The notes beneath the pieces were generated by a model that ran no database searches, had not been told where the DNA came from, and was given only the letters and a program-made list of their open reading frames with translations. The position numbers and the translations under genes were made by a program. DNA of 53,634 nucleotides from Edaphobacter aggregans (lineage in GTDB: Bacteria > Acidobacteriota > Terriglobia > Terriglobales > Acidobacteriaceae): assembly GCA_022736715.1 (NCBI GenBank), contig DZDJ01000014.1:1-53634 (forward strand), in the 5' to 3' direction. This document shows, piece by piece, positions 26,608-27,019 of this stretch (position 1 is its first letter; the number at the start of each line of letters is the position of its first letter).

Positions 26608-26729
26608 AGTAGTTGGATTTCCTTACGTGTGGAAGTAGATGGGCTCACCTTGCGGCGATCTCGGCTTGACTTTACTGGGTGGATGCGGGTTGTGTCAACG
26701 CCGTTTGAAAATTCCTCGGATCCGGGACT

Positions 26730-26879
26730 ATGAGGCACGCCAATAGCAGAATCACACTGGATGTCTACACGCAGGCAGTGAGTTCCAATAAGCGCGCCGC
26801 GCAGAGCAAGGTTGTAAGGATGATGGTGCCCGACGTGGGCACAAACGACTCTGGGGAGCAGGCCAATTTTGCTTGGTAA
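26730..26879 (+). pseudogene. 3' remnant of a tyrosine recombinase/integrase gene
   Basis: The 49-codon frame encodes MRHANSRITLDVYTQAVS and then NKRAAQSKVVRMM, the typical C-terminus of phage-type tyrosine recombinases: the RHA(N)S...YTQA block holds the conserved histidine and the catalytic tyrosine. An in-frame TGA at 26706 and loss of similarity upstream show that the rest of the gene is missing. The remnant sits 70 bp from a tRNA 3' fragment, which is the usual arrangement at the end of an integrated element. Confidence 0.8.
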
Positions 26880-26948
26880 CGCGCTTATTGTGCCCATATT
26901 TGCTTGTCACTGTAGGTCGCCAATTGATTCTAAGAACTTTGGAATCAA

Positions 26949-26995
26949 TGGCGGGGACGACGGGGGGCGAACCCGCGACCTCTGCCGTGACAGAG
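26949..26995 (-). pseudogene. 3' half of a tRNA-Asp-like gene (attachment-site fragment)
   Basis: On the minus strand the segment reads CTGTCACG (Asp-type anticodon loop with GTC), a GAGGTC variable loop, the T-arm GCGGGTTCGCCCCCCGT and CGTCCCCGCCA with CCA. The 5' half of a tRNA is absent; the rpmB terminator hairpin occupies its place. The T-loop carries C where tRNAs have A or G, so it is decaying. Next to it lies the inverted repeat ATTGATTC...GAATCAAT (26922-26949 region). I read it as an att site left by site-specific integration. Confidence 0.6.
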
Positions 26996-27003
26996 AAAAG
27001 TTT

Positions 27004-27019
27004 GCCGGGTGCGCCCGGC
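27004..27019 (-). terminator. Rho-independent terminator of rpmB
   Basis: On the minus strand GCCGGG-CGCA-CCCGGC is followed by AAACTTTTCT, starting 6 bp after the rpmB stop. The T-rich tail runs directly into the tRNA fragment. Confidence 0.85.

Follow-up and report, generated by a model that had tools for sequence, protein, structure and literature searches.

The Islander catalogue of tRNA-gene-targeting genomic islands defines such an island by an intact tRNA gene, a displaced fragment of that gene, and the island lying between the two (PMC4383910). SGI1 targets the 3' end of thdF/trmE rather than a tRNA gene, and a secondary attachment site for this element, located between sodB and purR, was tested by mating (PMC2297512). 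The locus described here lies behind rpmB in Edaphobacter aggregans, within the first 53,634 bases (the window) of contig C318 (73,525 bp), which belongs to a draft genome of 3.56 Mb in 349 contigs with 5.88% contamination. The sole tRNA called by ARAGORN in the window is a tRNA-Ser (596–687). The first-pass annotation had proposed looking elsewhere in the genome for an intact tRNA-Asp gene, and a genome-wide pattern and tRNA search showed that no complete copy is present in the assembly. The start of another contig of this assembly, C16 (positions 1–60, L044), falls within a different tRNA-Asp 3' half (80% identity), and the genes which follow resemble another mobile element; this contig start may represent contamination or a second integrated element.

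On the plus strand, positions 26730–26879 had been taken for the 3' remnant of an integrase gene, and homology to the C-termini of integrases in relatives bears this out. The remnant specifies 49 amino acids followed by a TAA stop (MRHANSRITLDVYTQAVSSNKRAAQSKVVRMMVPDVGTNDSGEQANFAW) and is related to public sequences with up to 92% identity over 37 residues and 85% over 46 (E values down to 1e-22). Alone it gave no Pfam or PHROG match; the family of its full-length relatives is PF00589. Homology starts at approximately residue 360 of the 411-residue frame of locus L176, and the left breakpoint lies at about 26728–26730. The region of the catalytic tyrosine is kept while the remaining catalytic domain is gone, so that the domain is incomplete; the piece is a dead remnant and no active member of the family. 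Two more C-termini of the same integrase occur in this genome, both convergent with an intact tRNA gene: one beside tRNA-Val(GAC) (C311:37546–37857, L042:7546–7858; C-terminus at C311:37603) and the other beside tRNA-Glu(TTC) (C316:29311–30037, L043:9311–10038; C-terminus at C316:29453). These are relics of related elements at normal sites. Truncation within approximately 30 residues before the sequence RHANSR recurs at L163, L164, L190, L206, L207, L208, L214 and L223, as well as in the window and on C311, which exceeds what even spacing would lead one to expect. Since the search pattern demands a surviving C-terminal end, the clustering before RHANS(R) is likely due to detection bias.

A search of 41 genomes with the full-length integrase of relative G021 placed most of the best matches just past the CCA end of, and convergent with, a tRNA gene or tRNA 3' half (Asp, Val, Glu, Ala, Lys, Ser, Met and Gly). 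Scans for the C-terminus yielded 83 loci, 80 from public genomes and three from viral contigs; the public loci are nearly all from Acidobacteria, and many are from named Acidobacteriaceae, Granulicella, Edaphobacter, Bryocella and Silvibacterium. An intact tRNA gene within 400 bp was tRNA-Asp at 33 of the 83 loci, tRNA-Glu at 12 and tRNA-Val at five, and on the strength of the 33 the window remnant belongs to a tRNA-Asp branch. Full-length members of this branch match PF00589 and phrog_1, and named phages offered distant integrases only (<28% identity among the best matches listed). Intact members carry the tRNA 3' half next to the integrase gene, so that integration rebuilds the tRNA. The family is one of tyrosine integrases whose recombination takes place at the anticodon loop of the target tRNA gene, and the scar behind rpmB falls in its tRNA-Asp-specific branch. 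A limited literature search found no published description of the branch, which is here documented as widespread in Acidobacteriaceae.

Two loci in relatives hold genes of other kinds. In G008 (contig C100) a CRISPR-like repeat array, visible as a repeated GDGRESPLKYT in translation, occurs at L123:1500–8000, within a few kb of an integrase remnant of the tRNA-Asp type, with ORFs of 152, 306 and 1091 aa that are cas2-, cas1- and cas9-like (names from sequence reading only); the array may be element cargo. In G021 (contig C60) the 8.7 kb between two tRNA-Asp 3' halves (L118:1794–10544) encode a second tyrosine recombinase as well as a Type ISP restriction-modification protein of 1038 aa, and this interval is likely a defence element in tandem.

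Opposite the integrase remnant, on the minus strand, lies the 3' half of a tRNA-Asp(GUC) gene, 45 nt running from the anticodon loop to the CCA (CTGTCAC...CCA). The first-pass annotation was right as to its identity and drew it slightly too long, to 26995; its exact extent is 26949–26993. It is 96% identical over 46 nt to the tRNA-Asp 3' halves of relatives and deviates solely in the T loop, with TTCGCC for TTCGAG. This AG to CC change abolishes the near-invariant A58, is private to the window copy and was seen in the functional gene of no relative examined. Neither ARAGORN nor Rfam called the piece, as is expected because it is half a gene. The remnant and the tRNA piece converge, with a spacing of 69 bp (26880–26948). 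The first part of this spacing, from the integrase stop to a hairpin at the CCA (26880–26919), is an element-derived spacer which aligns with that of relatives and bears a conserved AGTGAC on the minus strand. The locus thus has the layout of the branch, that is, an integrase convergent on the tRNA 3' end, the conserved spacer, AGTGAC and the CCA hairpin.

This layout is not due to chance, since the full block 26731–26993 (263 bp) is collinear as one piece with more than 40 of the fetched loci at approximately 69–79% nucleotide identity (E values as low as 1e-60); most of these Acidobacteriaceae elements lie in an intact tRNA-Asp gene. All alignments reaching the right end halt at 26993, though most of the loci run on into the tRNA 5' half. 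The fragment begins there at a known crossover subsite, the anticodon loop. Position 26993 is thus the crossover point, and the 264 bases from 26730 to 26993 are what survives of an element specific for tRNA-Asp, namely its att region on the side of the integrase; the remainder has been lost. The integrase-proximal att regions of L164–L205, from Edaphobacter, Granulicella, Bryocella, Silvibacterium and Acidobacterium, are alike over the whole 263 bp and share the integrase C-terminus, spacer, AGTGAC, hairpin and tRNA-Asp 3' half; beyond CTGTCAC most of them have the tRNA 5' half or the distal end of an element, whereas the window has the terminator of rpmB.

The hairpin (CCATTGATTCCAAAGTTCTTAGAATCAATTGG, 26920–26951, minus strand) takes the tRNA CCA as its first three bases and carries in its loop an arm-like motif, AAANNACTTA, which is similar to the motif in the distal arm of the elements. 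It is found at the same place in L163–L205 and forms a constant feature of tRNA-Asp element ends; tRNA-Asp genes without this integrase have mostly short stems at best in this position. Among 24 distinct sequences 83% of the cells at stem positions 4–9 pair, versus 56% with the arms shuffled between sequences, and none of 2000 shuffles reached the observed pairing, a covariation which is only suggestive because the shuffling ignores relatedness, leaving kinship in the statistic, and the stems were aligned on their outer pairs by eye. At stem position 5 AT, TA, CG and GC pairs all occur. An intrinsic terminator was considered for this hairpin and rejected, since by reading there is no T-run after it on either strand. 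The limited literature search found no published description of a covarying hairpin at the CCA. One might tentatively suggest, as a possibility that we hold to be on the doubtful side, that the att region is structured, a stem of 9–12 bp nucleated on the tRNA CCA presenting AAANNACTTA in its loop. Such a structure, encoded by the element, would serve recombination through arm presentation, or else control how the rebuilt tRNA is insulated or has its 3' end processed, and it may travel with the element even to non-tRNA sites such as rpmB.

On its other side the tRNA piece abuts ordinary host DNA. The intact core gene rpmB (ribosomal protein L28; 27026–27214, minus strand) is followed on its own strand by a GC-rich hairpin, a weak T-rich tail and then directly CTGTCAC. 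This terminator-like host sequence (26994–27019, minus strand) contains GCCGGG CGCA CCCGGC, and the hairpin at 27004–27019 has a predicted energy of -12.7 kcal/mol (z -3.5). Among the loci compared, three kinds of sequence occur beyond CTGTCAC. Intact sites continue into the tRNA 5' half (GGGGACGTAG...GCTGCC), tandem arrays continue into the distal end of an element with the motif TTYANNNAGTTAC (L168, L174, L187, L188, L190, L192, L207, L115 and L118), where the tRNA 5' half is missing too, and the window continues into the rpmB terminator. The distal-arm motif is absent from the window flank, the best score of 1.5 being chance-like (equalled by 91 of 500 shuffles) against 13.6–24 for the sites used to build the matrix. 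Of the other loci, L208 (JAICSO010000013.1) resembles the window in being an orphan, with an integrase remnant riddled by stops and a tRNA-Asp 3' half lacking the 5' half, and at L179 merely ten bases of the tRNA 5' half remain.

In the relatives rpmB has no such neighbor. ARAGORN found no tRNA in the 29 relative rpmB loci examined, nor is there a tRNA-Asp half after rpmB in relatives with readable downstream sequence. Their tRNA-Asp genes sit away from rpmB; the single contig of G017 has rpmB at 0.73 Mb and tRNA-Asp at 2.96 Mb. There is no tRNA gene at the rpmB site, and the tRNA piece arrived with the element. The first-pass annotation had described one end of an element integrated in a tRNA gene; a degraded integrase-proximal end of a tRNA-Asp family element is indeed present, but the tRNA gene supposed to be its site is not. 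The distance from rpmB to lepA is 4 kb in G004, approximately 185 kb in G019, approximately 221 kb in G017 and 35 kb here; this loose linkage, seen in several genomes, marks the rpmB side of the contig as ordinary host DNA. At L239:3400–6633 (JAJYSV010000077.1) approximately 3 kb separate rpmB from a tRNA-Glu which holds an integrase of this family, probably a coincidence.

How then did the end of a tRNA-Asp element come to lie behind rpmB? With somewhat better than even confidence, we favor integration of an element of the tRNA-Asp family at a non-tRNA secondary site behind rpmB, followed by deletion. As the relatives show, elements of this branch carry the tRNA-Asp 3' half by their integrase gene and recombine at the anticodon loop. 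One such element would have used a CTGTCAC-like site behind rpmB, giving the order rpmB terminator, crossover at CTGTCAC, tRNA-Asp 3' half, arm-containing hairpin and integrase. A deletion from approximately codon 360 of the integrase to beyond the other border, with its break at about 26728, would have come afterwards. The tRNA piece, free of selection on this reading, has lost its T-loop A58, and the integrase remnant no longer works. An element end is joined sharply, at the CTGTCAC crossover of the family, to non-canonical host DNA, the rpmB terminator, and we infer that the integrase made this junction. The C311 and C316 remnants, which likewise converge on intact tRNA-Val and tRNA-Glu genes, and the lack of a tandem-like distal-arm motif in the flank were also counted in favor, and SGI1 offers a precedent, being one of the integrative elements with documented secondary att sites (PMC2297512). 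Counted against it are the want of an intact tRNA-Asp in this draft and the fact that a deletion ending at the crossover would look identical. Secondary-site integration is unproven because scans of the window failed to reveal the second junction, in which a distal arm and a CTGTCAC-like short direct repeat of the overlap would meet the host DNA; it was presumably deleted.

The main rival is a deletion or rearrangement that happened to stop at the crossover, though we regard it as unlikely. Here the element would have integrated normally into tRNA-Asp elsewhere, alone or in tandem, and a later event would have brought the 3' half up against the rpmB terminator, with a breakpoint that coincided with the crossover by chance or through failed excision. 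Rearrangement is frequent in the Acidobacteriaceae, with guaA, rpmB, lepA and tRNA-Asp linked differently between genera; in G012 tRNA-Asp is approximately 11 kb from lepA, a gene which here is on the scar contig, 35 kb off. Such a breakpoint must, however, match to the base the crossover of the other 3'-half junctions, and the genes flanking the scar are unlike those flanking tRNA-Asp in G006, G008, G012, G017, G019 and G021, comparison with these six giving, besides paralogous regulators, just one beta-barrel protein and one weak match to a polysaccharide deacetylase. On this mismatch the scar was also rejected as the ancestral tRNA-Asp locus; the one shared block, the lepA region of G012, is not near tRNA-Asp in G017 or G019. 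A chimeric contig, misjoined at a repeated tRNA-Asp 3' half, is improbable. The draft is fragmented into its 349 contigs and contaminated, its complete tRNA-Asp was not assembled, and a contig of relative G008 begins at exactly this tRNA-Asp 3' half. The rpmB junction, however, falls on the outer margin of the repeat and not inside it, so that repeat collapse alone cannot have joined rpmB, and the copy has private substitutions (the T-loop AG to CC), both of which make a chimera less likely; nor does the assembly have another copy of the repeat with more than 80% identity.

The first-pass annotation had gone further and suggested that the whole interval between guaA and rpmB might be an old tRNA-integrated island with the scar as one border. 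The integrase remnant and tRNA piece do stand at one end, and the GC content of the block is somewhat below that of the right part of the window, but the region left of guaA is likewise lower in GC and there is no GC step at guaA. The proposed comparison of guaA-rpmB spacing in relatives gave no empty-site counterpart, for the two genes are not neighbors there: they lie at 2.16 and 0.73 Mb in G017 and on different contigs in G019 and G006. Being unlinked, they do not allow the interval to be read as host plus insert. Pattern, repeat and arm scans of the window found nothing convincing by way of the second tRNA-Asp half anticipated at the other border, a matching direct repeat, or a distal arm with CTGTCAC. 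Besides a two-component system and a GntR regulator, the interval encodes a type III polyketide synthase with a methyltransferase, a pyridine-nucleotide oxidoreductase accompanied by DsrC- and DsrE-type proteins, and YceI, cupin and polysaccharide-deacetylase proteins; all have ordinary metabolic and regulatory domains, and Pfam revealed no further mobility gene between guaA and rpmB. The island is thus largely refuted already, and we consider it highly improbable. As the scar shows, a tRNA 3' half carried along by an element can end up as an orphan away from tRNA genes, so it is unsafe to pair each tRNA fragment with the nearest block and name that block an island.

Returning to the secondary-site reading, the scar is a genuine fossil of mobile DNA of a known type in an unusual place and not the edge of a large island. 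The att anatomy is recognizable by the CTGTCAC crossover, an arm motif on both sides and the covarying CCA hairpin, and is usable to find and delimit elements and scars in soil bacteria of the Acidobacteriaceae. Compared with the islands of Islander (PMC4383910) it is alike in the adjacent tyrosine integrase, in the 3' tRNA fragment starting from the anticodon loop (site class A), here at 26993, and in the tandem arrays of its relatives. It differs in that only an orphan fragment is present beside rpmB: there is no intact tRNA at one end, here or behind rpmB in relatives, and no element body between two att copies, the window holding no second copy. The likeness to SGI1 is that an integrative element inserts between genes, at a site which is not the canonical one and resembles the primary site to a limited degree; the SGI1 event concerns a thdF/trmE-type element and was tested by mating (PMC2297512), whereas the event at rpmB is read from a fossil.
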